Positions 166 to 44,449 of a stretch of 63,020 nt of DNA are shown piece by piece. Under the pieces are notes generated by a model. That model ran no database searches. It was not told the DNA's origin and was given only the letters and a program-made list of their open reading frames with translations. How positions within the stretch are numbered: position 1 is the stretch's first letter; the number at the start of each line of letters is the position of its first letter. The DNA is taken from IMG/VR virus record IMGVR_UViG_3300010885_032116, positions 1-63,020 of that record; one strand, written 5' to 3'. This stretch comes from a virus. The position numbers were made by a program, and so were the translations under genes.

Positions 166-249
166 CTTGTGGTTATCCCGAAGAGACCCCTGAATCTGCC
201 TATCAGAGACTATTTCAGGGCAAGCCAACGGTTAGTGCTCTCTCGGCTA

Positions 250-320
250 TGACTTAATTATGACACATATATACTTAAAAAGCAAGTTATATAAAGAAAA
301 TATAAGAAGTTTTTTATAGC
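250..320. other. AT-rich stretch, possible unwinding element
   Basis: This stretch is nearly all A and T (runs such as ATATATACTTAAAAAG and TTATATAAAG), in contrast with GC-richer flanks. It holds the leftward promoter candidate and lies between the DnaA boxes and the folded RNA region. It could be the DNA unwinding element of an origin or simply a promoter region. No coding sequence is visible in 78-740 as a whole. Confidence 0.35.
257..285 (-). promoter_or_regulatory. candidate leftward sigma-70-type promoter
   Basis: On the minus strand, TTGCTT (280-285) and CATAAT (257-262) are separated by 17 bp. A TG lies one base before the -10 hexamer, as in extended -10 promoters. No gene lies between it and the leftward start at 77, so it could drive that gene through a leader of about 170 nt. 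Pattern match only. Confidence 0.35.
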
Positions 321-325
321 ATCCT

Positions 326-690
326 GGAGTGGGACATAGATCGCCCCTACCCCAGCGAAACTTCCGCTAGGAGAGGCGACAGTCGACCACTCCGAAGACA
401 CCATCCTGTGTGTGTCCACAAACCCCCGAAGGGGACCCTGATCACTGGCTGTGACCAGACCGTCGCGGTGGGGCGCATATCCCACCAAGAGCGGGCAGAT
501 ACTGCTTAGCTTGGTAAAACCTTGTGAGGGCTCTCCGTGTCTCACAAGTACCTTGCAGCTCCCGGTTTACGTCCGGTAACGGCCTTGAAACTTATTGACG
601 CATCCCGTAAGGTCTGCACCAAGGTGTTTCTTGGCGGATCGCACCTTACAGCACCCCTCGGCTAGCTTGTCAAGGCCGGGGGGTGTTTTT
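326..690 (+). ncRNA. candidate large structured RNA, about 365 nt
   Basis: This non-coding stretch contains successive perfect or near-perfect stems: GGAGTGG/CCACTCC (326-332/387-393) enclosing TCGCC/GGCGA (341-345/375-379) and GCG/CGC; CCCC/GGGG with a CGAA loop (423-434); CTGG/CCAG (445-458); GGTGGG/CCCACC (467-472/481-486); ACCAAG/CTTGGT (484-489/510-515) enclosing GCAG/CTGC; CTTGTGAG/CTCACAAG (521-528/541-548); CCG/CGG (562-582); GTAAGGT/ACCTTAC (607-613/643-649) enclosing CCAAG/CTTGG; and a terminator. Two neighbouring stems overlap by 3 nt and may be alternatives. The terminator sets the rightward strand. It lacks the RNase P signature GAGGAAAGUCC and the T-loop and CCA end of tmRNA. 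Its class is not recognised, and the 5' end is uncertain because no convincing rightward promoter was found. Confidence 0.55.
652..690 (+). terminator. strong intrinsic terminator ending the folded RNA
   Basis: CACCCCTCGGCT (652-663) pairs along its full 12 positions with GGCCGGGGGGTG (674-685), using two G-T wobbles, with a 10-nt loop. TTTTT (686-690) follows directly. It ends any rightward transcript through 326-690 before the helicase gene. Confidence 0.8.
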
Positions 691-767: not shown

Positions 768-2000
768 ATGATCCGCCCTTCCGCTGAAGTTCTATTAATC
801 TCCGCGCTTATTAATGCCGGGGACGCGACTGCCGCAGAACAGTTCGGGGTACTCCCTGAGATGTTCACTGGTTATCAGGCTGAGTACCGATGGGTTCTCA
901 GCTATCCCGGGGTTTACGCAGGCCAGCAGCCAAGTAAGGATTCGTTGCTGACTAAGTTCCCCGATTTCCGAATTACCGACAACGTCGACGTGGCTTTTCC
1001 AGCCGACGAGGTGATTTACCACTACACCAAAAGAGAGTTTACGCGTGCTGTTCGCGATGCGGCCACAATGCTGTCTGACGGAGATCTTGAGTCGGCAGTT
1101 ATGGCTGTTGCGGGCTTTGCCTTGCCCTCAAAAGCAAAACCTCTTGTAGACGCGTTAAGCGACATGAGCTTTCTGGACGATTACAACCTTCCCGTGGATC
1201 GACTACAAATCGGTTGGCCTACTTTGCGAACCACTACTGAAGGTATTCGACCAGGAGACTTGTGGTACGTCGCAGCTCGCCTTGGACAGGGCAAGAGCTG
1301 GTATTTGGGTTATCTAGCCAAAGACGCGCTTATGCAAGGGAAGCGGGTTATTTTTTACTCGCTAGAGATGAGCGAAAAACAGGTACGCACCAGAATGCAC
1401 ACCTTGCTGGCTCGGGAGCTAGGTATCGACGTACGCCACTCTGAACTGCATGGGCGCTCCTACGATTTGCTGGCCTACAAGCGCCTTGCTAACACGATCA
1501 AAGAGGGCGTGCCGGGTTCATTGCTCATTGTGGACTCCTCTTACGGAAGAATCTCTCCAGCGACTATTGCGTCCCACACGGACAAAGCTGATTTGTTTAT
1601 TGTTGACTACGCGGGCCTATTGGCTTCCCCGACGGGAAATCGTGCTGTAGACGACTGGCGCACTATGGCTTCGATTTCCAATCAGCTTAAAGAACTTGCT
1701 GTATCCAAAGACATATCAATAATTTCCGCAGCTCAAATTAACCGAGATGGGGACCAAGGGGGCTGGCGCCCTCCCAAGGTGCGAAATCTTGCTCAGTCTG
1801 ACGCCCTTGGGCAGGACGCGGATGTGGTTATTACTCATAAGCGTTACTCTCAAACCTCTATGGTTGCTTCAATAGAGAAAAACCGCCATGGTTCCTCTGG
1901 AGTAATGTTTTTCTCTGAGTTTGACCCCGAACGAGGAAAGTTTAGTGAAATCGCTCGCGAAGAAGCAGACCAACGCCGCGATGATGAAAGCGACGACTGA
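768..2000 (+). CDS. DnaB-like replicative helicase
   Basis: RecA-fold hexameric helicase that would unwind DNA at the phage fork. The ATP site is LGQGKSW (about residues 172-178 from this start), followed by a strand ending YSLEMSE as in DnaB. A Walker-B-type segment IVDYAGLL and a late AAQINRDG motif follow. About 410 residues is a little shorter than host DnaB, with a divergent N-terminal domain. ATG at 768 is chosen; ATG 759 and TTG 741 are in frame, and none has a clear ribosome site. The stop overlaps the next ATG. It is the first gene of the replication block. Confidence 0.85.
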   Translation: MIRPSAEVLLISALINAGDATAAEQFGVLPEMFTGYQAEYRWVLSYPGVYAGQQPSKDSLLTKFPDFRITDNVDVAFPADEVIYHYTKREFTRAVRDAATMLSDGDLESAVMAVAGFALPSKAKPLVDALSDMSFLDDYNLPVDRLQIGWPTLRTTTEGIRPGDLWYVAARLGQGKSWYLGYLAKDALMQGKRVIFYSLEMSEKQVRTRMHTLLARELGIDVRHSELHGRSYDLLAYKRLANTIKEGVPGSLLIVDSSYGRISPATIASHTDKADLFIVDYAGLLASPTGNRAVDDWRTMASISNQLKELAVSKDISIISAAQINRDGDQGGWRPPKVRNLAQSDALGQDADVVITHKRYSQTSMVASIEKNRHGSSGVMFFSEFDPERGKFSEIAREEADQRRDDESDD

Positions 2001-2218
2001 TGATGGTTGATATCTGCGTAAACTGCGGTAACGACGAGGGACACTATCCTTTGTGCATGGATTGTCTCTCCGCTACTGAAACTCCTCATTCCGATGGGGT
2101 GCTCATGGTCGCTTTGACAACTCAGGATTTTGTTGATTTTCTCGCTGCTGCCGAAGAACATGGGCAAAGTTTGCGCGAGTGGGCCGTTGAGGCTCTGAGA
2201 GAGAGGGTGTACCGATGA
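2000..2218 (+). CDS. small CxxC...CxxC protein
   Basis: A 72-residue protein with CVNC and CMDC pairs in the first 20 residues, which would form a small zinc knuckle. A helical, mildly acidic tail follows. The start overlaps the helicase stop (TGATG), and the stop overlaps the primase start (ATGA), so the three genes are translationally coupled. The position between helicase and primase suggests a replication accessory role, which is inferred. Family not recognised. Confidence 0.65.
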   Translation: MMVDICVNCGNDEGHYPLCMDCLSATETPHSDGVLMVALTTQDFVDFLAAAEEHGQSLREWAVEALRERVYR

Positions 2219-3024
2219 ACCATCGCACCCTAGCCGACGCTGTATCCCGAGGTACTGGTAATGAGCGCTCTTTTTTGTGTCCAGTTCATAACGACCATTC
2301 TGCCTCCGCCAGCGTCAATATCCTCAAGGGGCTTTGGTACTGCTACGCCTGCGGAGCTTCGGGCAAGGTGGATGGCTTCTCTGAACCGGATATCCACGAT
2401 GTCCACCGCGAAATTGAGGGCCTGCTGGACTTTGAACAGAAAATCTACCCAGAAAGCTGGCTAGACATGTTCGACTCTCCAAAGGACCCGTACTGGCTCA
2501 GCCGGTTTACACCAGGGGCGCTGAAGCACTTTCGGTTAGGCCGGGACCCAGTTAAGGATGTCCCGGTTTACCCCCTCAGAGACCCTCAGGGGCGCGTTCT
2601 GGGGGTAGTCTCGCGGTCTCAAGGAGAAGGTCCCAAGTATCGATACCCGTTTGGCGTCAGAACCTCAAGGCTGATGTTTGGGTATACAGAGGGCGTGGTC
2701 GCAACCCCAGTGCTTGTTGAAGGAGCCATGGACGCCATAGCGGTGTGGGAAGCGGGCTACGTCGGCCTTGCTTGTTACGGATCTCGGCTTTACCCTGAGC
2801 AAGTACGGCTATTGAGCCGCTTGAGCCCTACTCGCGTGATCCTGGCATTCGATGAAGACAGGGCGGGAATTGCTGCCCGAGAAGACGCTGAACGGCTGCT
2901 CGGAGATATTGGAATCTCCACTGTCAGCCTCCGGTGGCAGGATTCGGTTAAGGATTTGGCCGAAATGGACTGCGACACCCGAAAGACTTTGCTCCAAGAT
3001 GTTGCACTTTTACCCACTCTGTGA
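2215..3024 (+). CDS. DnaG-like primase
   Basis: Makes RNA primers for replication. The N-terminus carries a CHC2-type zinc finger (C22, H25, C43, C46). A TOPRIM domain follows, with the acidic residue in LVEGAMDA (E169) and the DxD pair in AFDEDRAG (D213, D215). At 269 residues it is much shorter than bacterial DnaG (about 600) and lacks the C-terminal helicase-binding domain, as is usual for phage versions. It overlaps the preceding gene by 4 nt and belongs to the same unit as the helicase. Confidence 0.85.
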   Translation: MNHRTLADAVSRGTGNERSFLCPVHNDHSASASVNILKGLWYCYACGASGKVDGFSEPDIHDVHREIEGLLDFEQKIYPESWLDMFDSPKDPYWLSRFTPGALKHFRLGRDPVKDVPVYPLRDPQGRVLGVVSRSQGEGPKYRYPFGVRTSRLMFGYTEGVVATPVLVEGAMDAIAVWEAGYVGLACYGSRLYPEQVRLLSRLSPTRVILAFDEDRAGIAAREDAERLLGDIGISTVSLRWQDSVKDLAEMDCDTRKTLLQDVALLPTL

Positions 3025-3037
3025 TTAAGGTGTGTCT

Positions 3038-3454
3038 ATGAAGATCCGCAGGCAAGATAAAGCAATTAATACCGACGAGTTGGCTGAAGCAATTCGCGTT
3101 GCGCGCGAAGCGAAGTTGGCTTACCAGCATTCCGAGGAACAGCACAAAAAGGCTCAACACATGCTGGCAGAACTGATGATTGCCCGGCAGGTAAAAAGCG
3201 GCAGCGCAGACATTGATGGCCAGGAAATTATTGCCACGGTTGTGCAAACCGAACGCAACGTCATAAATGAGGAAGGGTTACGGTCCTCCCTCGGCAGCGA
3301 TTTTGAAAAGATTGCTGTTCTTAAAGTGGACAATGGCATGCTCGCAAAAGCCATTACTGAAGGAAGCATTGACATGAACGCAATAGCTGAAAACGTCAAA
3401 GTTGTTCCAAGTACCCCGTATGTTCGATTTAGTGTGCGAGGTGTTTCTTCATGA
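3038..3454 (+). CDS. unknown protein with helical N-terminal half
   Basis: About 138 residues. The first 50 are rich in Ala, Glu, Lys and Gln (AEAIRVAREAKLAYQHSEEQ) and look like an extended helix or coiled coil. The second half is more beta-like. ATG 3038 is preferred over GTG 3032 because AAGG at 3027-3030 is then 7 nt upstream. It overlaps the next gene by 4 nt. No family recognised; the context points to replication or recombination. Confidence 0.6.
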   Translation: MKIRRQDKAINTDELAEAIRVAREAKLAYQHSEEQHKKAQHMLAELMIARQVKSGSADIDGQEIIATVVQTERNVINEEGLRSSLGSDFEKIAVLKVDNGMLAKAITEGSIDMNAIAENVKVVPSTPYVRFSVRGVSS

Positions 3455-4144: not shown

Positions 4145-4897
4145 ATGAAATTTGGAACAGCGAAGAAAAACATCTCAGAGGGACCTCGCGACGCCGACTG
4201 GCTGCGCAACTTTAAGGCCGGTGACACCAAGGTCCGTTTTATAGAGGAATGCGACGATTGGATTGTCTACCGCGAGCACTTTATGGAGGGCAAGTCTTTC
4301 CCGTGCACGCAGGATCGAAACACCTGTCCTGGTTGCTTGTCTACTGACGATCAGGTCTCTCGCGCTAGCCGCAAATATGCCACCAACGTACTTATGCCCG
4401 AGACAGGCTACGTGGTGCCAATCAAAATGCCAGTCACGCTGGTCAATCGCCTGGTAGCGCGCGCCGAACGTAACAACGGGACTATTACTAGCCGCGATTA
4501 CATCATCATTAAAGATGGTAAAGGTTTAGAGACTACTTACGACGTTGAGCAGGATGACAAATACGATGTCGACACCGATGCCCTCAAGCGTCAAGCTAAA
4601 GACATTGAATCCATTCTTACGCAGTCATATGTTGACGCGTGGGGCGAAACGCCAAACGACGGTTCGGCTCCAAAGCCAAAGGCAAAGCCTGCGGTTAAGG
4701 AGGAGGACGAAGAAATCCCTTTTGATGCAGCCTCCGCTAAGGAGGCAGTAAGCGAGGTGGTCGATGAGGAAGCCGTGCGAAAAATGACCAAACGCGAACT
4801 AGTGGAATTGGCCAAGCGCGCCAGTATTAGCATTAGCGAAGATGGTGAGCGCGAAGATATCATCGAAGAGTTGCTTACTTCGATGGCTGAGGAGTGA
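4145..4897 (+). CDS. gp32-like single-stranded DNA-binding protein
   Basis: Likely coats single-stranded DNA at the phage fork. A T4-gp32-style zinc site is visible: H45, C54, C61 and C64 (HFMEGKSFPC...CPGC). An OB-fold-like beta region precedes a proline/lysine linker. The acidic C-terminal region (DEEIPFD and the EEDIIEEL end) is typical of SSBs that recruit partners through the tail. The last 45 residues look like a SAP/HeH-type helical segment (MTKRELVELAKRAS). It lies between the HTH gene and the polymerase, with a 4-nt overlap into the next gene. Confidence 0.75.
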   Translation: MKFGTAKKNISEGPRDADWLRNFKAGDTKVRFIEECDDWIVYREHFMEGKSFPCTQDRNTCPGCLSTDDQVSRASRKYATNVLMPETGYVVPIKMPVTLVNRLVARAERNNGTITSRDYIIIKDGKGLETTYDVEQDDKYDVDTDALKRQAKDIESILTQSYVDAWGETPNDGSAPKPKAKPAVKEEDEEIPFDAASAKEAVSEVVDEEAVRKMTKRELVELAKRASISISEDGEREDIIEELLTSMAEE

Positions 4898-5202
4898 ACA
4901 CAGCAACTCAGGCGCGCGACGAAGCCATCGACAGAGTCAGAGAGCACGCCAACCCGATATGGAAGGCCAAGGCGTTGGCAGTAGTTGCTCGGCTGTCTCG
5001 CAACTGCGGAGAGTTCACCACTGACGATGTGTGGGAGGCGTTGGATTTAATTGGAGAGTCTACCCATGAGCCGCGCGCGTTAGGTGCAATAATGCAGGCA
5101 GCACGTAAACAGGGAATTTGCTTTCCAACGGAGACCTATATACCTTCGGCGCGTACCGCCTGTCATGCTCGCCCAGTGCGGGTATGGAGGGCTAAAAAAT
5201 AA
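4894..5202 (+). CDS. conserved actinophage-type hypothetical, helical domain
   Basis: A 102-residue protein starting at GTG 4894, overlapping the SSB stop. The core (EFTTDDVWEALD followed by THEPRALGAIMQAARKQG) resembles a small helical protein common in actinobacteriophages near replication genes. It looks like a winged-helix-sized fold with a basic C-terminus (RPVRVWRAKK). Biochemical role unknown; a DNA-binding accessory to the SSB or polymerase is a guess. Confidence 0.65.
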   Translation: MNTATQARDEAIDRVREHANPIWKAKALAVVARLSRNCGEFTTDDVWEALDLIGESTHEPRALGAIMQAARKQGICFPTETYIPSARTACHARPVRVWRAKK

Positions 5203-5238
5203 ACAACAACTGAATAGGACCCCTGTCGCCTGAGGTGG

Positions 5239-5263
5239 CCTGCCCGTCCAAGCCGGGCGCAGG
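5239..5263 (+). promoter_or_regulatory. hairpin overlapping the polymerase ribosome site
   Basis: CCTGC (5239-5243) pairs with GCAGG (5259-5263), and CCG (5244-5246) with CGG (5254-5256). The right arm overlaps the AGGGA that serves as the ribosome site for GTG 5267. It may limit translation of the polymerase. The 64-nt gap holding it contains no gene. Confidence 0.35.
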
Positions 5264-5266
5264 GAC

Positions 5267-7909
5267 GTGAATATAAAAATTAAGAGAACTCCAAAAATAT
5301 GGAACCTCCACAGTCACTCGAAGTTTTCCGCTAACGACGCCTTGCCGGATGTCAAAGACATGGTGGCTACGGTCGCCCGCATGGGTCAGAAGGCTCTGGG
5401 ACTGACCGACCACGGAAACATGGCTGGATCTGTGCAGCTGTACAAACACGCCATGAAAGCTGGCATCAAGCCGTTCCCTGGCACTGAACTTTATGTCGTG
5501 GGAGATCGCGGAGATAAGAAAGCCAAGCGTCACCACATGTGTGTAGTTGCCTTCACTACTGAGGGTTACCAGAACCTCGTACGGCTGAGCACGCTGAGCC
5601 ACCAGAACTTCTTTCACAAGCCGATAGTGGACCAGGCTGATCTTGCCGGTCTGGCCGAGGACGGCTACCTCAAAGGCTTGGCGGCAACCAGCGGGTGCTA
5701 CTTCGGGTTTACCTCTCAGGCAATTTCTCAAGGCGACATGGACGCCGCCCGGTCTTACCTCACGGGGTACGCCAAGTGGTTCGACCGGTTTTACGTTGAG
5801 CTGCAAAATCACAACATTGATCATGGCAACGGACAAGACGATGATTCTCTATCAAACGCTTTGATGGGGCTGGCTGATGAACTAGGTTTGCCCTGTGTAC
5901 TTACTCAAGATTCGCATTATTGCGATCAACACGACAAGGAGACACATGACGCACTCAAAGGACTGGTCGCTTTCGGAGACGATCCAGATGACGCTAGATT
6001 TCCCGGAGACGGATTTCACTTGGCTGATGACCAATGGCTACGGGAGCGACACCACGACGCCCGGTTTGCTCGGGGATGCGAAGGACTTGCCGACCTCCTG
6101 GAGGCACACGACCTGACCATTCCGGAGTTAGAACAATACTCTTACCGGATTCCCTTTACTGTGGCAGAACCTGAGAAATCTTTGCGTTTGCGCACTATGC
6201 AGGAGCTTTCGAATCGTGGTGTTGACTCTAAGCGCTACATTGATCGCCTAGAGACTGAAATGTCAATCATCTCCGATACCGGAATGAGCGGATACCTATT
6301 GCTGGTATCCGAAGTGACTGATTACTGCAAAAACAACCGCATTTTTTATCAAGCGCGAGGGTCGGCTTCTGGGTCGATTGTTTGTTGGTTGCTGGGCATC
6401 ACTCAGGTAGATCCTTTGAAGTGGGGTCTGTTGTTTGAGCGCTTTATCAGCCGAGACCGGACTAAACCGCCGGATATTGACCTTGACGTTGAGCATTCCC
6501 GTAGACCGGAACTGATGGCGTGGCTAGAAAGTAGGTTTTCCGTCAACCAGATTGGAACTTGGCTCCAGCACACAATCACCCCAGAAGAAGAAGATGGCAA
6601 GGGAAGCTTGCGGGTGCGTTATTACCAGCGCTTGAAAAAGCAAGGAAAACCCACACCGCCATGGGATTTAATCCCCATTGAAGACAAACGTCAGCTTGTC
6701 AAAATTGCCTCTCACGGTCCGTTTAATGCCTACGGAACACATGCGGCTGGTCTGATTGTCACTACAACACAGAGCGAGTTTGACAAAATTGTCCCAATGA
6801 TGAAGGTGGCTTCATCTAAAACCTCAGTAAGCCAGTACGAAATGGGAGACATCGAATCTCTTGGACTGGTCAAACTTGACGTTCTTGGGTTAAAAACTCT
6901 TTCAGTACTCAACCAGACGATGATCAACCTCGGGAGGGACCCTTTCGAGGGACTTGACTGGATTCCGCTTAACGACGCCAAGACCTACGCCGCTATTGCC
7001 AAAGGCGACACTGATGGTGTTTTCCAGTTGGAGGGTTACACTGCGCGCCGTGGATGCCGGGAACTCAAGCCGACCACTATTAACGACGTGGTTGCCTCGA
7101 TGGCCTTGTTCCGCCCGGCGACGATTCAATCGGGAGCTACTTCCTCCTACATTAGGCGCAAGCACGGGTTGGAAACGGTTGCGGAAAGGCACCCAATCAT
7201 CGCGGCTAAAACAAAGACCACTTATGGGATCATGGTATTCCAAGAGCAAGTGATTGCAATACTCCGCGAATTGGGAATGGACCCTGATGATTTGACGGCT
7301 TTTTTGAAAGCTGTTAAGGCTTCCAACGCAGATGTTGGGGACGCTGGTGGCGTCATTCGTGGCTACCGAGATCAAGTTCGTGGCATGGCCGACGCCGCCA
7401 ATATGACTGACGAGGATTGGGAATGGCTGTGGGGCGCCATTGAGGGATTCGCCGCCTACGGTTTCAACCAATCCCATTCGGTTGCCTACGGGCTCACTGC
7501 TTACCGATGCGCTTATTTGTCTGTCCATCACACTCTGGACTTCTACGCCGCTTTGCTTGCCGTTGCTGCGGGCACGGACAAGGAATTTGACTATGTTGAC
7601 GCAGCACGATCCAGAGGCTTGAGAGTTCTTAAGGCAAACGTGAACGACTCCGGTGTCACCTACGGGATAGACCCCAGGCGTAAAGGAATCCGCAAGGGAA
7701 TGCTGAGTGTTCCTGGGGTTGGCGAGAAGGCCGCGGAAGAAATAGTTACTGCGCGGCCTGAAACTGGTTACACGTCTATGCACCATCTTGCTTCTATTGT
7801 AAATCATAGAAAAGTTACTGGAATCAAGTCATTGCGAGAAAGCGGTGACCGGTCAGTTGGGACAATCGCCAAAATAGAGTCTTACGGCGGATTCGGGAAC
7901 TTGGAATGA
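5267..7909 (+). CDS. DNA polymerase III alpha subunit (DnaE-type)
   Basis: C-family replicative polymerase. The N-terminal PHP domain keeps H15, H17, D48 and H49 (HSHS...TDHG). The catalytic palm carries PDIDLD (402-407), and the third acidic residue lies in KLDVLGL (D538). A fingers region and a helix-hairpin-helix-like segment (SVPGVGEKAAEEI) follow near residue 810. At 880 residues it is about 280 shorter than E. coli DnaE and ends before the OB and clamp-loader-binding regions. It starts at GTG 5267 with AGGGA upstream. The stop overlaps the HNH gene by 4 nt. Confidence 0.92.
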   Translation: MNIKIKRTPKIWNLHSHSKFSANDALPDVKDMVATVARMGQKALGLTDHGNMAGSVQLYKHAMKAGIKPFPGTELYVVGDRGDKKAKRHHMCVVAFTTEGYQNLVRLSTLSHQNFFHKPIVDQADLAGLAEDGYLKGLAATSGCYFGFTSQAISQGDMDAARSYLTGYAKWFDRFYVELQNHNIDHGNGQDDDSLSNALMGLADELGLPCVLTQDSHYCDQHDKETHDALKGLVAFGDDPDDARFPGDGFHLADDQWLRERHHDARFARGCEGLADLLEAHDLTIPELEQYSYRIPFTVAEPEKSLRLRTMQELSNRGVDSKRYIDRLETEMSIISDTGMSGYLLLVSEVTDYCKNNRIFYQARGSASGSIVCWLLGITQVDPLKWGLLFERFISRDRTKPPDIDLDVEHSRRPELMAWLESRFSVNQIGTWLQHTITPEEEDGKGSLRVRYYQRLKKQGKPTPPWDLIPIEDKRQLVKIASHGPFNAYGTHAAGLIVTTTQSEFDKIVPMMKVASSKTSVSQYEMGDIESLGLVKLDVLGLKTLSVLNQTMINLGRDPFEGLDWIPLNDAKTYAAIAKGDTDGVFQLEGYTARRGCRELKPTTINDVVASMALFRPATIQSGATSSYIRRKHGLETVAERHPIIAAKTKTTYGIMVFQEQVIAILRELGMDPDDLTAFLKAVKASNADVGDAGGVIRGYRDQVRGMADAANMTDEDWEWLWGAIEGFAAYGFNQSHSVAYGLTAYRCAYLSVHHTLDFYAALLAVAAGTDKEFDYVDAARSRGLRVLKANVNDSGVTYGIDPRRKGIRKGMLSVPGVGEKAAEEIVTARPETGYTSMHHLASIVNHRKVTGIKSLRESGDRSVGTIAKIESYGGFGNLE

Positions 7910-8247
7910 GCGACAAGCAACGACGCTTGATTCAGGAGCGGTCCGGCGGCATGTGTGAGGCTTTAGTCTCCGTTAACAACACGTGGTCAAGGTGCTGGCA
8001 AACTCCTGTAGAAATACACCACATGCTTACTAGAGCCCGAGGCGGCGGAGCATTAGACAAAGCCGGGGAGATTTACCACTTGGTTGCTTTGTGCCCGGGC
8101 TGTCACCGTCTTAGCGACGGCGCTGAAGCTTATGAGGGCGGATTGCTTCTTGAGGGCAGCGCAATTTGGGACAGCACAAACAACAAACCGATATATACCG
8201 GACCCGACGATTATCTAAAAAGGAAGTATGGGCGTGACCAAACTTAA
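7906..8247 (+). CDS. HNH-type endonuclease
   Basis: A 113-residue HNH/His-Me finger protein: C17 and C30, then IHHM (H38, H39) and CPGCH (C63, C66, H67), consistent with a zinc-stabilised beta-beta-alpha metal fold that cuts DNA. It overlaps the polymerase stop by 4 nt and the next gene by 20 nt. It may be a structural or repair nuclease rather than a homing enzyme, because the flanking genes are intact and coupled. Confidence 0.75.
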   Translation: MSDKQRRLIQERSGGMCEALVSVNNTWSRCWQTPVEIHHMLTRARGGGALDKAGEIYHLVALCPGCHRLSDGAEAYEGGLLLEGSAIWDSTNNKPIYTGPDDYLKRKYGRDQT

Positions 8248-9016
8248 GCAACTATTGCGCGCAGCCCAGGGAGACTTGCCCATTACGGTGCGCCACGAAC
8301 GCTGGATGTCTTCCAATCCCAACCCAATTTACTCAGAAAAAGCGTTGGAATTTGCCCAACAAGCCCTCCAGCGCAATGTAGGGGGGTCTCGCAAAAGAGC
8401 CAGGCTGTTCCGCGCTTCGGGAATGGCCAGATGCCCACGCTCTCGTATGTTCACGTATTTAGGTATGCCTAAACGTCTAGACATTGATTCACAGCTAGCT
8501 GGAATATTTTCAATGGGGGAGTTTATTCACCTGCGCTGGCAAATGGCTGGAATCACCGAAGGCTGGCTGGTTTCGCCCGAGGTTCCCGTTGAGTCTCCTG
8601 AAATAATGCTAGGAGGGACAATGGATGGTGTTTTGTATGACAATAGCGGGTTTGAGTTGAAGTCCATAAACTCCCATGGGTACCGCCGTGTCATGGATTT
8701 TGGTCCCAAAGAGGAGCATCTGCTTCAGGTCCACGCCTACATGATCATGCGCAAAGAGGTGTCAGACCGGTTCTCTATTGTCTACGAAAACAAAGACACG
8801 TCGGAGTGGCGGGAGTTTAGAGTCACTTATGACCAGGTTATTGCTCAAAAAGCTATGAACGAGATTGAATCTCTAATTAGTAATTACACCAGCAATACCC
8901 TCCCGCCCATGCTTAGCTCTTGTGAAACTAAAGAGGGTTATATCTGGAGGGGATGCGAGTTTCGCGACATTTGCCCTTCCGCCTCATGGCCTGAGTCGAC
9001 TGACGGGGGAGTCTAG
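8228..9016 (+). CDS. Cas4/RecB-like PD-(D/E)xK exonuclease
   Basis: Nuclease core: GTMDGV (D133), then FELKS (E143, K145) and a QVHAYM motif (Q167), which is the RecB-family arrangement. Four cysteines sit where Cas4/AddB proteins bind a 4Fe-4S cluster: C69 N-terminal to the core and C232, C243, C249 after it. It likely resects DNA ends for phage recombination or genome processing. There is no CRISPR locus in the window, so this is not a Cas operon. It overlaps the HNH gene by 20 nt. Confidence 0.8.
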   Translation: MGVTKLKQLLRAAQGDLPITVRHERWMSSNPNPIYSEKALEFAQQALQRNVGGSRKRARLFRASGMARCPRSRMFTYLGMPKRLDIDSQLAGIFSMGEFIHLRWQMAGITEGWLVSPEVPVESPEIMLGGTMDGVLYDNSGFELKSINSHGYRRVMDFGPKEEHLLQVHAYMIMRKEVSDRFSIVYENKDTSEWREFRVTYDQVIAQKAMNEIESLISNYTSNTLPPMLSSCETKEGYIWRGCEFRDICPSASWPESTDGGV

Positions 9017-9035
9017 AAGTGAGAGAGGTGGCGAC

Positions 9036-9233
9036 ATGGAGCGCATTGAAATTCGTTACGGTGACCTGGAGACAACAGTCTTTATTAACCGGTCTTACCC
9101 AGATTCCCTTGACGACGCTACTCGGCGCGCAATGGAGGTTTTTGCCCACGCCGCCTCAGTCATTGCAAAATACGAGTGGTCTCCGCATATTCCACTTGAG
9201 GAACTTGTCGAAGTCGAAGACGACGACGAATGA
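9036..9233 (+). CDS. small acidic unknown protein
   Basis: A 65-residue protein beginning MERIEIRYGDLETTVF and ending in an acidic tail (EVEDDDE). ATG 9036 is chosen because GAGAGAGG lies 7 nt upstream. It is the last rightward gene before a convergent leftward gene. No family recognised. Confidence 0.6.
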   Translation: MERIEIRYGDLETTVFINRSYPDSLDDATRRAMEVFAHAASVIAKYEWSPHIPLEELVEVEDDDE

Positions 9234-9237
9234 CAAA

Positions 9238-9290
9238 GGCCCAGCTCCAGTAAAGAAGCCAGGCCCTTGCCGTGTATCTGATCAGATACG
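9238..9290. terminator. bidirectional terminator region between convergent genes
   Basis: Two folds fill the gap between the rightward gene ending at 9233 and the leftward gene ending at 9295. One is an imperfect stem, AAAGGCCCAGC with GCCAGGCCCTT (about 9235-9267). The other is a perfect 16-bp palindrome, GTATCTGATCAGATAC (9274-9289). Long U-tracts are lacking. The palindrome could equally be a protein-binding operator. Confidence 0.45.
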
Positions 9291-9294
9291 TGGT

Positions 9295-9651
9295 TTAGTA
9301 AATTGTGAAAGCACTCACGTTCACCGTTCCGCTGACGGTGATCTTTGCCAAGCCATCGGCCGGATCAGCAAAGCTATCGTCAATCGGACCAACTGCAATA
9401 TCGCCAGAGGTCAGCGGGGCAGTTACTACAAGATCCGGGATGGCAGAGTTCCATGCGGTAGTACCAGGAGCCGCTACTGTGACGGTCACCGCAGATCCAC
9501 CGGTATTCTTGACGCGAATAAAGACATTCTTGCCCGGAGCAACGGTAGCGGTATCGGCAGAGGTGACCGATTGACCGGCGACTCCAGCCAGGCTAAGCGC
9601 AGCGCCTGCTGTGTAAGTAATTGCGTTTGAAGCCAAAGTGACTGTAGCCAT
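9295..9651 (-). CDS. structural-type beta protein, inverted orientation
   Basis: A 118-residue Thr/Val/Ala-rich protein with regular alternation (TVTVAAPG, ITVSGTVNV), as in head-decoration, fibre or Ig-like virion proteins. The ribosome site GGAGGAACT immediately precedes ATG 9651 on the minus strand and fixes the start. It is the only leftward gene between 0.7 and 58.9 kb, flanked by a convergent terminator and a 64-nt divergent spacer, so it has its own transcription unit. A capsid decoration role is inferred from composition only. Confidence 0.7.
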   Translation of the reverse strand: MATVTLASNAITYTAGAALSLAGVAGQSVTSADTATVAPGKNVFIRVKNTGGSAVTVTVAAPGTTAWNSAIPDLVVTAPLTSGDIAVGPIDDSFADPADGLAKITVSGTVNVSAFTIY

Positions 9652-9715
9652 AGTTCCTCCAGATAGAAAAGATGTTCATCTCCAAGATAAGGTTGACTAC
9701 AATTCAGGAGTGGTT

Positions 9716-10126
9716 ATGTCGGTAAAAATCCGCCGGGGAAGCACTGAAAATGCTCCAAAAGACGTACAGCTAGGTACGAGACTTACCGAAGTTCCCACAC
9801 AGTATGGACTGCCCAGTGTTGAAGAACTGTGGAAAGAGATTCATGGCTATGTTGATATTTTGTTGGGAAGAACAGATTCTCCGGTCAATTCTCCATATTT
9901 AGCCATGGGGGAGGTAGCCACTACCTATTATTCTCGCGCTCAGGAGATTGACATGCTTATCCACGTAGCCGAGCGTGAGGGGATTGTTATGCGTGGATCC
10001 CCATTTTACAAGTTTCGCACAGGGGAGCTGAGGAGCTTTATTGAGCTGTCTAGAAAGTGCGCGGAGTTGGGATCAAGGCGCCTCACCCAGGAGCAGCTCT
10101 TGCACGCTCAGCGCTATGAGGAATAG
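9716..10126 (+). CDS. conserved phage hypothetical, about 136 residues
   Basis: Starts MSVKIRRGSTENAP at ATG 9716, with AGGAG at 9706-9710. An earlier in-frame start at 9638 would run into the divergent gene and lacks a ribosome site. The middle is helical (YYSRAQEIDMLIHVAEREG). The C-terminus is basic and helical (ELSRKCAELGSRRLTQEQ). Proteins of this kind occur in actinophage replication regions; function unknown. Confidence 0.6.
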   Translation: MSVKIRRGSTENAPKDVQLGTRLTEVPTQYGLPSVEELWKEIHGYVDILLGRTDSPVNSPYLAMGEVATTYYSRAQEIDMLIHVAEREGIVMRGSPFYKFRTGELRSFIELSRKCAELGSRRLTQEQLLHAQRYEE

Positions 10127-10201
10127 TCACGGAAAAATTTGTGATTAAATATGAGTCGAAACCTTTTGTATTATGAAGATACCTTCGTTGTTAGGAGCAC
10201 C

Positions 10202-10570
10202 ATGCCAAACAGTCTTACAAGGGGAAACGCCAGAGTCGGTTCCCTCACTGCTACCCGTGATCTTTCTGCCGCCACCCTCACAGTAGGCGGCGGAACAACT
10301 ATCAACAAGATTGCTTCTGGAACCGCGTCTGTTGACTTTCCCTCTATCGCGGCAGTATCTACCGGAAGCGCTACTTTCACGCTTACCGGAGCCACCACGA
10401 GCGATATTGTCATCCTCAATGTTCCCGCCCTCACAAATGGACTTGGGTTTGTTGGGGCATCCGTTACGGCAGCAGATACCGTTACTGTCTACGCTGTAAA
10501 CACCACTGCTGCTGCGATCAACAACGCTGCGGTTACTTTTAAATATCTTCTTGTAGATGCCTCAGCCTGA
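10202..10570 (+). CDS. small structural-type beta protein
   Basis: A 122-residue Thr/Ala/Val-rich protein (ATLTVGGGTTINKIASG, SATFTLTGATTSD) resembling repeat-like phage fibre or decoration domains. ATG 10202 is preferred: AGGAG lies at 10193-10197, whereas the in-frame ATG 10151 has no such site. Its composition resembles the inverted gene at 9295-9651, so the two may be partner virion proteins placed away from the main structural block. It overlaps the resolvase start by 14 nt. Confidence 0.6.
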   Translation: MPNSLTRGNARVGSLTATRDLSAATLTVGGGTTINKIASGTASVDFPSIAAVSTGSATFTLTGATTSDIVILNVPALTNGLGFVGASVTAADTVTVYAVNTTAAAINNAAVTFKYLLVDASA

Positions 10571-11015
10571 AACTAAACAAATGAGCTGGGGAGTCGACCT
10601 GGGGGTACGTAGTGTTTATGCTGCGCACCTTGATGGATTGACTCTCCAGCTTTATTCATTTGTGCTGAAACGTGGACTAGGTAGAGCCTTAGAACTGAGT
10701 CAAATATCTGAATGGATAGACAAAACAATTAGCACAGAAGAACCTGTGTACATCGAGGAGCCGCCTTTAGCAGGCTCTCGTAACATCAGGACTGCCCTGC
10801 AACTCTCTATGACGGCCGGGGTGATTGCATCAAGGCTCCCCCAAGCTGAGTTTGTCCCCGTAGCCTCTTGGAAGAAAAAAGTAGTAGGGAGGGGAAATAT
10901 GGATAAAACCGGCGTGTCGCAATGGCTTAATCTATTGCACCCCGACTATTTTGTGTTATGTGCCGGTGACCAAAACCACATTGACGCCACCTGCATTGCC
11001 CTCTTCGGGCGTTAA
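10557..11015 (+). CDS. RuvC-like Holliday junction resolvase
   Basis: RNase-H-fold junction resolvase. Acidic residues appear in the RuvC order: D14 in GVDLG, E67/E68 in VYIEEPP, and D138/D143 in DQNHIDA near the end. At 152 residues it has the usual family length. It would cut branched intermediates before packaging. The start at ATG 10557 overlaps the preceding gene; ATG 10578 (MSWGVDLG) is a close alternative. Confidence 0.75.
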   Translation: MPQPETKQMSWGVDLGVRSVYAAHLDGLTLQLYSFVLKRGLGRALELSQISEWIDKTISTEEPVYIEEPPLAGSRNIRTALQLSMTAGVIASRLPQAEFVPVASWKKKVVGRGNMDKTGVSQWLNLLHPDYFVLCAGDQNHIDATCIALFGR

Positions 11016-11430
11016 ATACTACTCTCTGACGAACACACGTTCGAATTCAGCGTTAGACGAGCTATATGGGGAAGACGAGAAAAAGGGTCTAGGCCTGGGC
11101 CGTCTTATTCCGGAGTGGCATAATCACGCCGCCTGTGCCGGAGTCCCCGACAGGGTGTTTTTTGGAACCTCTGAGGCGGGGGTAAGGCCAGCTCTAACGG
11201 TCACCGAGATTAGTAACGCGCGGCGTTATTGCGACACATGTTCGGTTTTTGTTCATTGCCTTACTCACGCCCTAGAAGTCCGAGAAAGATATGGCGTGTG
11301 GGCAGGTACTTCCGGGCGTACTCGGAATAAGATGTGGGTAGAAATCGACACGGGACTAGCCAGCATCCCTGAAATTGTTGAGCGGACCAAGATTATCAGT
11401 GAAAAACGTGCCAAACGCAGGAAGCCTTAA
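10951..11430 (+). CDS. WhiB-like Fe-S transcription regulator
   Basis: Four cysteines (C62, C94, C97, C103) in the WhiB C...CxxC...C order and the following GVWAG turn (115-119) identify the actinobacterial Wbl family. These bind a 4Fe-4S cluster and contact the major sigma factor. The basic C-terminus (EKRAKRRKP) would contact DNA. It may alter host transcription, as phage Wbl proteins can. The true start is uncertain: the frame overlaps the resolvase, and GTG 10960/10966 or TTG 10981/10996 are possible. Confidence 0.8.
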   Translation: MCYVPVTKTTLTPPALPSSGVKYYSLTNTRSNSALDELYGEDEKKGLGLGRLIPEWHNHAACAGVPDRVFFGTSEAGVRPALTVTEISNARRYCDTCSVFVHCLTHALEVRERYGVWAGTSGRTRNKMWVEIDTGLASIPEIVERTKIISEKRAKRRKP

Positions 11431-11451
11431 TTAACAGAAGAGGAGTACCGC

Positions 11452-11838
11452 ATGAGCCACGGACCACATTGCAAGTACCCTGAAAACTCCATCTGTATGT
11501 GTGAGCTGGAGCCTGAAACGGCGCCTAGCCTTTACCACGACATTTTGTGCCCAATGCGTCAAAACCCCTGCGCTCCCCTGACTAACAAAGAGGGCAACGT
11601 CATTGTTACCACCAAGCAGGACCATTTTGAGTCTGAGGACCGAGATTGCGAACGTTGCGGGGAAAAATGCTTGTGCACAATCATCCATCTGACGCGCTAC
11701 GACGAGCGACGACGCATGGAGACAAAGGAAAAGCATCCTTCTAACAAGCACGGTAAACACGAGAAGACTGCCGAAAACGAGATGGTTGTTTACACATACA
11801 AGAACCCCGGCAACTGGCGGGTGATCAAAAATGCATGA
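11452..11838 (+). CDS. Cys/His-rich small protein
   Basis: A 128-residue protein with a clear ribosome site (AGAGGAG) upstream. Three metal-ligand clusters are visible: HGPHC...CMC at the N-terminus, HDILC in the middle and CERCGEKCLC near residue 65. The N-terminal H-x2-C...C-x-C pattern is shared with four neighbouring small genes. It likely binds zinc; target unknown. The end overlaps the next gene by 8 nt. Confidence 0.65.
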   Translation: MSHGPHCKYPENSICMCELEPETAPSLYHDILCPMRQNPCAPLTNKEGNVIVTTKQDHFESEDRDCERCGEKCLCTIIHLTRYDERRRMETKEKHPSNKHGKHEKTAENEMVVYTYKNPGNWRVIKNA

Positions 11839-12055
11839 ACACGACACCCATTGTCCCTCGCTCCTGGGCCTTCCCTGCTGCTGCACGCTGCTTGCTAGAA
11901 CCAGAAAAGATGAGCGCGAGAAAGCCGCGGAGAGGGTAAACGCCCAGCCTTGGGCAGTCTTTGAGCACGGTGGCGCCTTAAGGATGATGGTTATCCGAGA
12001 AGACGCCATGGCGGCAGCCAACGGGTTTCTTGGGGCAGAGGAGCAGGAAAAGTGA
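11831..12055 (+). CDS. HxxxC...CCC small protein
   Basis: A 74-residue protein starting MHEHDTHC, with CCC at 16-18. It is the same H-D-x-x-C...C-x-C layout as its neighbours, followed by a basic helix (LARTRKDEREKAAER). Overlaps on both sides indicate coupled translation. Function unknown. Confidence 0.6.
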   Translation: MHEHDTHCPSLLGLPCCCTLLARTRKDEREKAAERVNAQPWAVFEHGGALRMMVIREDAMAAANGFLGAEEQEK

Positions 12056-12330
12056 CCACGCCCGATTACTACTTAACTCCAGCCGAGTTCTTTGACGCCA
12101 TAGAGAAAGCTTTCTTAAAGGTTTATTGTGAGGAAAACGAAAAAGACTTTTACGAAATTAAGTGCCATCCGGAGGATATTGCGGTTAACGCGACCGTAAT
12201 TATTGAGTCCGTTAGCGCATATCTTTGTGCGCGGATGTACGCAGAACGACGTATGACTCGTGAGTCATCATCTTTAGCAGCCAAGCCTGAAAAAAGGAAA
12301 GGCGCCCCATACCCAAAGGAGCGCACGTGA
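12052..12330 (+). CDS. unknown small protein
   Basis: A 92-residue protein from GTG 12052, overlapping the previous stop by 4 nt. The N-terminal half is acidic and helical (AEFFDAIEKAFLKVYCEE). The C-terminus is basic (KPEKRKGAPYPKERT). It lacks the paired cysteine motif of its neighbours. No family recognised. Confidence 0.55.
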   Translation: MTTPDYYLTPAEFFDAIEKAFLKVYCEENEKDFYEIKCHPEDIAVNATVIIESVSAYLCARMYAERRMTRESSSLAAKPEKRKGAPYPKERT

Positions 12331-12506
12331 CTCACGACCCCTTGTGCCGACATACCGTAGACAGTTTTACGGGAAACGAGCACTGTGACTGCATTCTCAT
12401 TAAAAAAGTCAGATCTGATGAGGTTGCTCAATTTGTTGAACTGGTTAAGGCAGCTAAATCAAAACGCAAGAATACCCTGTGGAAAAGATTTAGGAAATTC
12501 TGGTGA
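12327..12506 (+). CDS. HDPLC...CDC mini-protein (59 aa)
   Basis: Short gene from GTG 12327 (overlapping the previous stop, GTGA) to TGA 12506. The peptide begins MTHDPLC and carries CDC at residues 20-22, then a basic helical tail ending WKRFRKFW. It belongs to the local set of H-x2-C...C-x-C proteins. The overlapping starts and the shared motif argue that it is real. Confidence 0.6.
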   Translation: MTHDPLCRHTVDSFTGNEHCDCILIKKVRSDEVAQFVELVKAAKSKRKNTLWKRFRKFW

Positions 12507-12607
12507 GCAGCGTAGTCATGTTCATTATGGCGGTTCTTCTTGGCTCGCTAGTATTGGTCATGCTGTTGAACTGGTCCAGAGAAAAAAACGGGGATGACGA
12601 GGAGTGA
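12503..12607 (+). CDS. single-helix membrane peptide (34 aa)
   Basis: GTG 12503 overlaps the previous stop, and TGA 12605-12607 overlaps the next GTG. The peptide starts MSSVVMFIMAVLLGSLV, continues with about 10 more hydrophobic residues and ends in an acidic tail (NGDDEE). It is one predicted membrane helix. Overlaps at both ends make coupled translation plausible. Role unknown; a small membrane-acting early protein is possible. Confidence 0.5.
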   Translation: MSSVVMFIMAVLLGSLVLVMLLNWSREKNGDDEE

Positions 12608-12837
12608 AGTGGGCTTACGATGCTGCGTGCAGATTGCCAGGAAGCAATCCTGTGTGGTGGGACGAAGAGGGTGTGTGCACCGACTTGGCCATCCAAATTT
12701 GCTCTACGTGCCCTGTTCAGCCGGAATGCCTGGACGAGGCCTTAACCGCTCAGGAAACAAATGGAATCTGGGGTGGCCTGACGCCAAAGCAGCGCCAGAG
12801 GATTGGGGCCACTAGGTGGGAGAAAGGAAGAAGATGA
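12604..12837 (+). CDS. second WhiB-like protein
   Basis: A 77-residue Wbl-family protein: C9, C33, C36 and C42 as cluster ligands, then the canonical GIWGG (54-58) and a basic tail (WEKGRR). It is closer to a minimal Wbl domain than the first copy at 10951-11430. It starts at GTG 12604, overlapping the membrane peptide, and its stop overlaps the next ATG. Two Wbl genes within 2 kb suggest regulatory control of host or phage promoters. Confidence 0.85.
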   Translation: MKWAYDAACRLPGSNPVWWDEEGVCTDLAIQICSTCPVQPECLDEALTAQETNGIWGGLTPKQRQRIGATRWEKGRR

Positions 12838-13061
12838 GACAACATCACCCGCTATGTGAACGACACTCTGAAGGCAACGTCAAGGTGTGTATCTGCCCAG
12901 AAATTGAGCAAGCCCGCGCTGAGGAACGCCGAGCTGTGATAAAACTGGCCATCTACCTACAAGGCCGGGGATACGGTCAAGCAAACAGCATTGACGCTGG
13001 AGACTTTATTGACGCACTAAACGAGCGATCGTGGAAAGACAATCCCTATTGGGAAGGATGA
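12834..13061 (+). CDS. HHPLC...CIC small protein
   Basis: A 75-residue protein from ATG 12834 (ATGA overlap with the WhiB stop, GAAAGGAAG upstream). It begins MRQHHPLC with CIC at 19-21, again the local metal-ligand pattern. A helix (EQARAEERRAVIKLAIYL) follows. Function unknown. Confidence 0.6.
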   Translation: MRQHHPLCERHSEGNVKVCICPEIEQARAEERRAVIKLAIYLQGRGYGQANSIDAGDFIDALNERSWKDNPYWEG

Positions 13062-13062
13062 T

Positions 13063-13509
13063 ATGTCAGACAAAGACGGTGAGCTTGTTCCTCTTCCCGA
13101 CAACCCCACCCAGGACGAGCGCGCTTATGCAGCTCACCAGCTTAGGCTGGGAGGTCTGACGTGGACGGAAGTATCCACTAAGGCTGGTTACGCCAACGCA
13201 GCCACAGCAAACGTGGAAGTAAAGGCTTTCTTGCAAAGAGCTGCTCTTATGCGTGATTACGCCCTGCGCCAGGAGTCTTTGGACATGGAAATGGACCGCC
13301 TTGACGCCTTACAGGCTGCTGCCTGGGGAGCGGCTATGACTGGAGATCTCAAGGCCATCGACACCTGCATCCGTGTCATGGGACACCGGGCCAAACTTCT
13401 AGGACTGGAATACCGTGAAGAGACCGTAGTGAACAGAACTATTGTGGTTACTGGGTCTACTGAGCAGTACGTACAGACCTTGAAAATGATTGCTGGCACT
13501 GATGAGTAA
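13063..13509 (+). CDS. terminase small subunit
   Basis: A 148-residue protein with an N-terminal helix-turn-helix (YAAHQLRLGGLTWTEVSTKAG) and a helical oligomerisation core (DMEMDRLDALQAAAWGAA, then DLKAIDTCIRVMGHRAKLLG). The latter is the layout of actinophage small terminases that recognise the packaging site. The large subunit lies 6 kb downstream, an unusual separation. Confidence is moderate because small terminases diverge strongly. Confidence 0.65.
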   Translation: MSDKDGELVPLPDNPTQDERAYAAHQLRLGGLTWTEVSTKAGYANAATANVEVKAFLQRAALMRDYALRQESLDMEMDRLDALQAAAWGAAMTGDLKAIDTCIRVMGHRAKLLGLEYREETVVNRTIVVTGSTEQYVQTLKMIAGTDE

Positions 13510-13702
13510 TTTCATTGGGACTTTACTCGTAGCATTGGAACAATTAGAACGTTATATGGACAAGTTTTCCAAAATGTATGGGATGAGGACAGTGAAGCAC
13601 GACTCAAATTGCGAGATTAGCGAGGCTTGCCTTCAGTGCCGCTGTCTCCCAGACGACATGTGCGAATGCACCTGTGGAAAGCTGGATGGATACCGTGGCT
13701 GA
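13502..13702 (+). CDS. Cys-rich small protein
   Basis: A 66-residue protein from ATG 13502, overlapping the terminase stop. The C-terminal half has HDSNC, then C-x2-C-x-C and CECTC, so at least seven cysteines lie within about 25 residues. It is the fifth member of the local H-x2-C...C-x-C set. Likely metal-binding; function unknown. Confidence 0.55.
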   Translation: MSNFIGTLLVALEQLERYMDKFSKMYGMRTVKHDSNCEISEACLQCRCLPDDMCECTCGKLDGYRG

Positions 13703-13919
13703 GCTATACGGGTTGTATTTTCCCGAAATCAACCCTGCGCAATACCAGCCTTTAGAGGCGATGGTGCTTATCAAGGGGTTCGATTCCCACCAGCGCATCC
13801 GTTACCGCGAGATTGCCACGGGTGGATTAGGGCCAATGGAGTGTTATGGAATGGCCATGAGCGCCGCAGACACCTGGCGGCAGGTGCTTATGAATGGCTT
13901 GCGGAAGGCTGAAGACTGA
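13686..13919 (+). CDS. unknown protein, about 77 residues
   Basis: Starts MDTVAELYGLYFPE at ATG 13686 (GTG 13695 is an alternative) and overlaps the previous gene. It is helical with a conserved-looking centre (YREIATGGLGPMECYGMAMS). The ending LRKAED resembles short helical linkers in head genes. No family recognised. Confidence 0.5.
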   Translation: MDTVAELYGLYFPEINPAQYQPLEAMVLIKGFDSHQRIRYREIATGGLGPMECYGMAMSAADTWRQVLMNGLRKAED

Positions 13920-13923
13920 TCCC

Positions 13924-14364
13924 ATGATTAGTGCATTCGGTATTGAACATGGTGGTGTTTCTAAGGGTCTTCCTTCGGTGTTGCGCGCTGGCGTAAAAGC
14001 TGGAAAGGTATTCCCCGGGGCCGCACGCGGTATGGGCCGTGAGACTAATCAGGCCCAGAACTACATGCGTTATCGAGTTGCCGCGAATAAGGCCGGGCGT
14101 GACGCTGCTCGCACGGGAAGCTTGAATGACACGTTTGTTCGAACGGGAGGGCGCGACGCCCTTGGCGGCGCTGAAGTGCGTGGGGTTATGTCGCGCAAGA
14201 ACGTCGGTCGTCAAATGAAGAAGGAAAGCACTCTGCTTGGCACGACAAAGCCGGGTGTTCCAGGGACTCCTCAGGGTATGCGCGCGTCTGCCGCTGCCGA
14301 TAGGACGGCAAGCTACCGCCGCACTAAAGGTCGCGCCCCACTCACGACACCTCGGCTACCCTAA
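13924..14364 (+). CDS. SAFG-tag basic protein 1
   Basis: A 146-residue very basic protein whose first 15 residues, MISAFGIEHGGVSKG, match the starts of several other proteins here. The body is rich in Arg, Gly and Ala with no enzyme motif, and it contains KGLPSVLRA, repeated as KGLPSALRA inside the 14947 protein. Basic composition and location near the terminases suggest a virion or DNA-associated protein. That is inference. Confidence 0.6.
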   Translation: MISAFGIEHGGVSKGLPSVLRAGVKAGKVFPGAARGMGRETNQAQNYMRYRVAANKAGRDAARTGSLNDTFVRTGGRDALGGAEVRGVMSRKNVGRQMKKESTLLGTTKPGVPGTPQGMRASAAADRTASYRRTKGRAPLTTPRLP

Positions 14365-38619: not shown

Positions 38620-39600
38620 ATGCCCACTTTAGCCTCTCTGGCATTGGATTGTGGCGGTAGCATCGGGAAGTTGTACTTACCTGGCACAAAGGTTGTCTCA
38701 CAGACCAACCCGTCAGTAGCAGTATGCAACGGTCGACTGCTTACCATTATCCGCGGCCTCAATTATGTCCTTTGGCAAGCAAGCCGATTTCCTTGTGCAT
38801 GGGGACCGCTTGCTTATATGCACCCAGAAAACGACCGAACATTAACTACGACCAATTATTTAGCCGAGTTGGATCCAACAACGCTAGATGTGACCAGATT
38901 TACTGAAATTAAAACTGATGCCTTAGATGAGTTACCTCTATGGCAATTTATTGGGAAAGAAGACGCGCGCCTTTCCTGGTGGAACAACCAGATGTGGATT
39001 AGCGGGGTGCGCAGAGACAACAACCCTACGGGCATTGGCCGCATGGAAACTTCTCGCATTGAGGTCAACTGGGACGCGTTTACGGCTGTTGAAGTAGAAC
39101 GCCACCTCATCCCAGTACCATCCGGAGATAGTTACTGTGAGAAAAATTGGATGCCTGTAGCCGATTTGCCTTTTCACTACGTCAAGTGGACGCAGCCTAC
39201 TGAATTAGTGCGAGCTAACCTAGACGGCACGACGGAATCTTTGTCCATTGTTGACACTAAAATCCCAGTCTACGCCGATCAACGAGGAAGCTCACAGGTA
39301 TTGCAATGGGGAAAATATCTTATTGCCATTACTCACGAGGTTGACCTTTTTACGCACCGTAACTGGGCTCGTGATGCGGTTTATAGGCATCGACTAGCTG
39401 TTTGGGACGAAGATTTCCAGCTAATGGGTTTGAGCAAGCAAAACTTCTCCTTTATGGATGGAAACATTGAGTTTTGCGCTGGCGCGGCAGAATTAAACGG
39501 GGACTTAATAATTTCATACGGCTTTCAGGACAATTGCGCTTACGCATTAAAAGTGCCTGAAGTGCTTGTCGACAGCATGATTGAGGAGGCGCTGTGCTAG
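38620..39600 (+). CDS. GH130-like beta-propeller protein
   Basis: A 326-residue protein with a five-bladed-propeller look: repeated W/Y-rich strands, EKNWMPVADL (about 165-175), RGSSQVLQWGKYLIAITHEV and a late SFMDGNIEFCAGAA...GDLIISYGFQDNCAYAL. These match the GH130-like glycoside phosphorylase/hydrolase-related family that often travels with glycan-modifying genes. Catalytic residues cannot be confirmed by eye. It overlaps the methyltransferase gene by 7 nt. Confidence 0.6.
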   Translation: MPTLASLALDCGGSIGKLYLPGTKVVSQTNPSVAVCNGRLLTIIRGLNYVLWQASRFPCAWGPLAYMHPENDRTLTTTNYLAELDPTTLDVTRFTEIKTDALDELPLWQFIGKEDARLSWWNNQMWISGVRRDNNPTGIGRMETSRIEVNWDAFTAVEVERHLIPVPSGDSYCEKNWMPVADLPFHYVKWTQPTELVRANLDGTTESLSIVDTKIPVYADQRGSSQVLQWGKYLIAITHEVDLFTHRNWARDAVYRHRLAVWDEDFQLMGLSKQNFSFMDGNIEFCAGAAELNGDLIISYGFQDNCAYALKVPEVLVDSMIEEALC

Positions 39601-40874: not shown

Positions 40875-40875
40875 C

Positions 40876-44252: not shown

Positions 44253-44449
44253 TCGAATGGGCGATGATTGACGAAAACAACGTTGTAGTAAATATCTCCA
44301 TAGGAGATGAAGACGTTGTGCCAGTGCTTGAGGAGTTGACCGGACTTAGATTTTTGCCCGCTACTCCGCCAAATGGGTGGATGAACGCGTTTATCGGGAC
44401 TGTATGGGATGGAACTAACTTTGTACTGCCTTTAGGGAGCTCCCAATGA
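44249..44449 (+). CDS. small fibre-associated protein
   Basis: A 66-residue protein from GTG 44249, coupled to the adhesin and to the next gene by 4-nt overlaps. The pattern (WAMIDENNVVVNISIGDE, PNGWMNAFIGTVWDGTNF) resembles short tail-fibre assembly or cap proteins that follow glycine-rich adhesins. Role inferred. Confidence 0.6.
   Translation: MIEWAMIDENNVVVNISIGDEDVVPVLEELTGLRFLPATPPNGWMNAFIGTVWDGTNFVLPLGSSQ

Follow-up and report, generated by a model that had tools for sequence, protein, structure and literature searches.

A putative structured non-coding RNA gene of no catalogued family beside the DnaB-like helicase gene of an actinobacterial phage lineage

The DNA analysed here, referred to as the window, is a virus record of 63,020 bases. 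Its proteins place the phage among actinobacterial phages, and the Gordonia phages GMA6 and Chidiebere together with Brevibacterium phage Cantare are distant relatives by protein (helicase 30-36% identical). To the left of a block at positions 318-690 the genes run leftward, and to its right a rightward arm opens with a DnaB-like helicase gene and continues with that for primase (Table 1). The gene order, an AAA ATPase running leftward and helicase, primase, SSB-like and DnaE genes running rightward, is common to the window and a second viral contig, L026, and this suggests that the two ends of the window are joined in the real genome. No initiator (RepA), integrase, ParA/ParB or repressor gene was recognised among the open reading frames scanned with Pfam and PHROGs, and ARAGORN called no tRNA or tmRNA in the 63 kb.

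Several other features of the window were recorded. Terminator-like hairpins with a T-run abut the ribosome-binding sites of leftward genes at 121-98 and about 62180-62146 (minus strand), and similar hairpins occur near 2340 in contig L163 and at 4394-4444 in L026; these are possibly attenuators or 5′ stabilizing hairpins. The structural gene region includes an FkbM-type methyltransferase (39594-40874), a collagen-repeat protein (40840-43422) and a sulfotransferase-like protein (44446-45105). A small protein encoded at 13063-13509 matches a PHROG annotated as RNase E (phrog_645, E 2e-21) and has no Pfam match.

Table 1. Features at the junction between the leftward genes and the helicase arm (window coordinates).
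Feature	Position	Strand	Details
Two perfect DnaA-box-like repeats, TTGTCCACA	145-165 (145-153, 157-165)	+	12 bp apart
AT-rich tract	241-320		72-80% A+T; between boxes and RNA; may serve for unwinding and hold the promoter of the RNA
Putative structured non-coding RNA gene	318-690	+	5′ end approximate; fold z -3.9, L026 homologue, consensus fold z -7.5, no shared ORF
5′ domain	325-394	+	closed by P1 (325-332/387-394), with P2 (341-345/375-379) inside
Variable region	395-460	+	three local hairpins; largely missing in L026
Hairpin A	467-486	+	GGTGGG/CCCACC; GTTTGG/CCAAAC in L026, two of six pairs changed on both sides, none broken
Core, CAAGAGCGGGCAGATACTG	486-504	+	19 of 19 nt identical in L026
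Apical stem, CTTGTGAG/CTCACAAG	521-548	+	conserved loop GGCTCTCCGT (529-538); in L026 three pairs changed on both sides, two broken on the plus reading
3′ irregular hairpin and conserved linker, GCGGATCGCACCTTAC	582-649	+	hairpin 582-635; fold and L026 comparison
Intrinsic terminator	650-690	+	stem 650-663/674-687 (14 pairs), then TTTTT; hairpin kept in L026 (4893-4932)
Predicted helicase promoter, TTGACC-N18-TAGAAA	730-768 (730-759)	+	predicted start about 766, two bases before the ATG
DnaB-like helicase gene	768-2000	+	ATG start at 768; directly downstream of the RNA block
Primase gene	2215-3024	+	after helicase

The presence of a folded non-coding block at 318-690 is confirmed. A reading made from the sequence alone had counted at least eight successive stem-loops; the block folds into a dozen or so successive helices, with hairpins predicted at 354-368, 397-416, 423-434, 438-458, 467-486, 513-552, 562-576 and 582-635. 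On the plus strand the minimum free energy (MFE) is -154.4 kcal/mol and none of 100 dinucleotide shuffles is as good (z -3.9). The 5′ domain and the terminator account for much of the excess stability, and several intervening 160-nt windows have z values near -1. The opposite strand of the block also folds well (z -4.9), so that the single-sequence fold proves little and leaves the strand unfixed. The clean terminator of the earlier reading, described there with a 12-bp stem, is present and two pairs longer. It is GC-rich with a loop of 10 nt, and for that reason was omitted by a simple terminator scan with a loop limit of 8.

Scans with a helicase alignment identified L026, the helicase of which is 65% identical to that of the window. 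The region directly upstream of this gene matches the window RNA (nhmmer E 1e-8; reciprocal E 1e-10/1e-9) and has the same position, order and orientation. The identical stretches are CAAGAGCGGGCAGATACTG, CTTGGTA, GGCTCTCCGT and CAGCTC, the 3′ terminator hairpin is also common to both phages and no ORF common to the window block and the homologous L026 region was found. In the core, GAG 489-491 pairs with CTC 559-561 and CTG 502-504 with CAG 556-558. Five core pairs are compensated, and the count falls to 0 or 1 when the partners are slid by one to three columns. The covariation check that had been proposed for this block, run with L026 as the one homologue, gives compensatory changes: from the core to the 3′ end the consensus fold scores z -7.5 on the plus strand against shuffled columns, with 11 double changes, four single and none broken. 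These values derive from two sequences, with alignment segments cut by hand and the two terminators aligned arm to arm, and the absence of broken pairs refers to a consensus structure fitted to the very alignment on which it is scored. In the 5′ domain the likeness is only architectural: L026 has a P1-like 8-bp helix (4607-4614/4699-4706) around a P2-like helix, and the former, which taken alone is not significant (shuffle p 0.20), could have arisen by chance.

Judged by sequence comparison, the L026 homologue with its covariation provides decisive support, beyond chance, for a structured RNA. The comparison shows a common fold and position, the lack of a shared ORF and a terminator kept as a hairpin, and on this basis a conserved, structured and uncatalogued non-coding element, seen in two phages, is established at the locus. 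Searched against Rfam, 318-690 has no match at gathering cut-offs and a permissive scan gave chance-level matches only. The impression that it lacks the hallmarks of tmRNA and RNase P RNA also holds, neither having an Rfam match and no tmRNA being called by ARAGORN. There is likewise no match to the Rfam covariance model of OLE. The terminator hairpin accounts for a match to RybB that fell below cut-off (E 0.048), and this match was discarded. We estimate a probability of about 0.8 that 318-690 encodes a structured, uncatalogued non-coding RNA, most likely on the plus strand, a figure that covers the structured RNA gene only and not its function. The discrete RNA of about 365 nt, closed by an intrinsic terminator, that the sequence-only reading had proposed is thus supported by fold, homologue and covariation, and we infer that the block is transcribed, together with the strand and the 5′ end of the transcript.

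How widely does the element occur? Scans with helicase, primase and DnaE returned many relatives and, among those searched, a covariance model of the RNA (R1) matched only in L026. When IMG/VR was scanned for the motifs, in exact and in loosened form, the matches listed (about 80 loci in each of the last two scans) held no homologue other than L026, and a scan of GTDB genomes found no prophage of this phage clade. The closest relative, with about 94% identical DNA, is a contig (L450) that covers window positions 4886-13941 only and stops short of the RNA.

In four sister phages the helicase promoter is preceded by another element, about 100 nt long (L028:604-698, L030:4357-4458, L031:3843-3942 and L033:4842-4944). 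It has a long stem, GCCGGGYGGGG/CCCCRCCCGG, around AAGGACTCCCATGACC and GAGGAGTACCTGCCC, and it covaries, with z -9.6 on the plus strand and six compensated pairs across the four phages. A promoter-like GGGACA/GAGACA-18-TAACGT/TACGTT lies upstream in three of the four. This element resembles the window RNA in its place, in being co-oriented with the helicase gene and in covarying, but the two are unrelated in sequence and fold. None of the other loci searched matches it; the model built from it (R2) does not match the window and R1 and R2 show no cross-match. Position, not sequence, is therefore what these phages have in common.

More distant loci show blocks of other kinds. In L451 about 500 nt of structured non-coding DNA (2830-3330) precede the helicase gene, folding better on the plus strand (z -3.5) than on the minus (z -1.5) and ending in a long, strong plus-strand hairpin followed by TTTCTTTT. 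The L163 block also folds better on the plus strand (z -4.4 as opposed to -0.9), and in the L106 block neither strand is better than shuffles. The L451 block contains a T-arm-like GGGAGTTCGACTCCC, and ARAGORN called no tRNA there. Gordonia phages GMA6, Chidiebere and UBSmoodge have a GC-rich non-coding block of 600-800 nt at the same divergent junction (L021 3990-4600, L023 3800-4640 and L025 3790-4640). In the Chidiebere and UBSmoodge groups only the strand that points away from the helicase gene has a consensus fold clearly better than that of shuffled columns, and on that account the Gordonia block was set aside as support for the window RNA.

The earlier reading placed the RNA next to a putative origin. 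In the window the two perfect TTGTCCACA boxes and the AT-rich tract upstream are only suggestive of an origin, and the boxes are absent from the equivalent stretch of L026, which keeps the RNA. The divergent junction, the adjoining helicase and primase genes and the lack of a recognised RepA, integrase, ParA/ParB or repressor gene also count in favour of a replication role. By analogy, the leading, though tentative, view of function is of an RNA that may set or trigger replication of the phage at the origin-like DNA beside it, with a host-directed or regulatory RNA close behind. Transcription would start in or near the AT-rich tract, at about 300-325, pass through the 5′ domain, the hairpin chain, the conserved core and the 3′ hairpin, and stop at the terminator at 690. 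The conserved core would consist of an asymmetric loop, CGGGCAGATA, facing the hairpin with the invariant loop GGCTCTCCGT, and through it the RNA would work with a protein or with the host or phage replication machinery, in the manner of the mycobacteriophage RNA-based origins. The helicase-primase-polymerase genes would start from their own promoter just downstream of the terminator. A broader proposal, in which a dedicated structured RNA made by the origin sets off genome replication in a lytic actinophage lineage and relatives have swapped in unrelated structured RNAs at this locus for the same job, is doubtful.

A second possibility, less probable than a replication role, is a trans-acting early RNA on the plus strand aimed at the host as a decoy, sponge or inhibitor, which would lie before the helicase gene since early genes start there. 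Phages L5 and D29 provide a precedent in an abundant, stable early non-coding RNA of about 500 nt, transcribed from Pleft in a region toxic to the host (PMC5712189). The structural evidence serves this explanation as well as it does the replication role, and the conserved core, single-stranded in the predicted fold, may represent a binding site. Weighing against it, the D29 right end and the block are not similar in sequence and no target was found, the conserved motifs being without a perfect complement elsewhere in the phage genome.

The strand itself bears on a third explanation, in which the functional RNA is on the minus strand, a long leader running leftward from about 690 towards the divergent genes, comparable to the leader of the early operon in L5 and D29. 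The core alignment taken without the terminator is better on the minus strand (z -4.7 as opposed to -3.1), and the single-sequence MFE z is slightly better on that strand in both the window and L026, although the difference between strands is within the null. The apical stem of L026 has two A-C mismatches on the plus reading which become G-U pairs on the minus strand, and once these wobbles were counted the plus strand was no longer treated as certain. A hairpin with a T-run also precedes the left gene on the minus strand (121-98). The plus strand is favoured by terminator polarity, by three wobble pairs in the terminator stem and by comparison within the clade: the variation of the terminator in L026, where the T-run is weak, is kept by G-U pairs on the plus strand, the core-to-end consensus is better there (z on the minus strand is -6.5) and so are the sister elements. 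No good minus-strand promoter was found. We consider that the RNA is probably on the plus strand and that a leftward leader is unlikely.

The block looks like a transcription unit of its own, ended by the terminator before a separate, predicted helicase promoter. On the plus strand of the 63 kb only one other site matches a generic promoter better than the latter, and most close relatives likewise have a near-leaderless promoter for the helicase gene (TTGACn-17 to 19-TAGRAA, placed 6-8 nt ahead of the start codon, ATG). Upstream of the RNA the same generic scan gave no convincing strong promoter on either strand. These observations bear on a fourth explanation, that the block is a regulated leader, or attenuator, of the helicase-primase-polymerase operon, the fold of which determines whether transcription stops at 690 or reads through. 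The RNA and terminator are suitably co-oriented, directly before the operon. However, the promoter-like site between the terminator and the helicase gene counts against an attenuator, as does the length of the RNA, and we regard this role as distinctly improbable.

That the hairpins act as DNA, in an origin structure or as protein-binding palindromes, fits the origin-like neighbours and the folding of both strands but is very unlikely, given that several changes are kept only by the G-U pairs of one strand, that there is an intrinsic terminator with a T-run and invariant unpaired motifs, and that the DnaA boxes are not conserved with the block.

A plus-strand structured RNA of no catalogued family would join the few large phage RNAs known; its core and location are defined, and a covariance model is available for searches. 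Sister phages keep different structured segments before the helicase gene, which suggests that these phages have in common some unrecognised step where the replication arm begins.

The ColE1 RNA II primer is a structured transcript beside an origin. A similar arrangement would fit the replication reading, but the block has no identified antisense partner corresponding to RNA I, and the comparison with RNA II is by Rfam scan only.

GOLLD and ROOL, which the sequence-only reading had suggested as possible relatives, are, like the block, large structured phage RNAs of unknown function (PMC12286853). Kinship is not borne out: both families are in Rfam and neither is matched. Many GOLLD RNAs exceed 800 nt (PMC12286853), and the window RNA is much shorter. 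GOLLD and ROOL often neighbour tRNA genes, whereas the window has none and in L026 a tRNA-Arg gene lies 3 kb from the RNA.

The right-end RNA of L5, D29 and StarStuff is also an actinophage non-coding RNA opening an early arm, with most transcripts ending in a defined region (PMC5712189). It leads a leftward arm from the genome end (PMC5712189), whereas the window block points at the helicase gene. No kinship was found in an nhmmer comparison with the D29 right end (best E 4.4).

A parallel in the use of RNA is provided by mycobacteriophages Alma, LadyBird, RedRock, Gladiator and Et2Brutus, with RNA-based prophage origins in which a non-coding RNA is needed for replication (PMC7157519); actinophages can thus employ such RNAs for this purpose. 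These origins are located upstream of parA and directed away from it, with 41-71% sequence conservation between phages (PMC7157519). No kinship was found, the block showing no sequence or model similarity to the origins of Alma, RedRock and Gladiator, the three compared. The RNA-based origins serve prophage replication near parABS, whereas in the window phage neither parABS nor lysogeny genes were recognised. The systems are nonetheless alike in that each is a non-coding actinophage region of several hundred bases, with no conserved ORF and low sequence conservation, located beside replication or maintenance functions.
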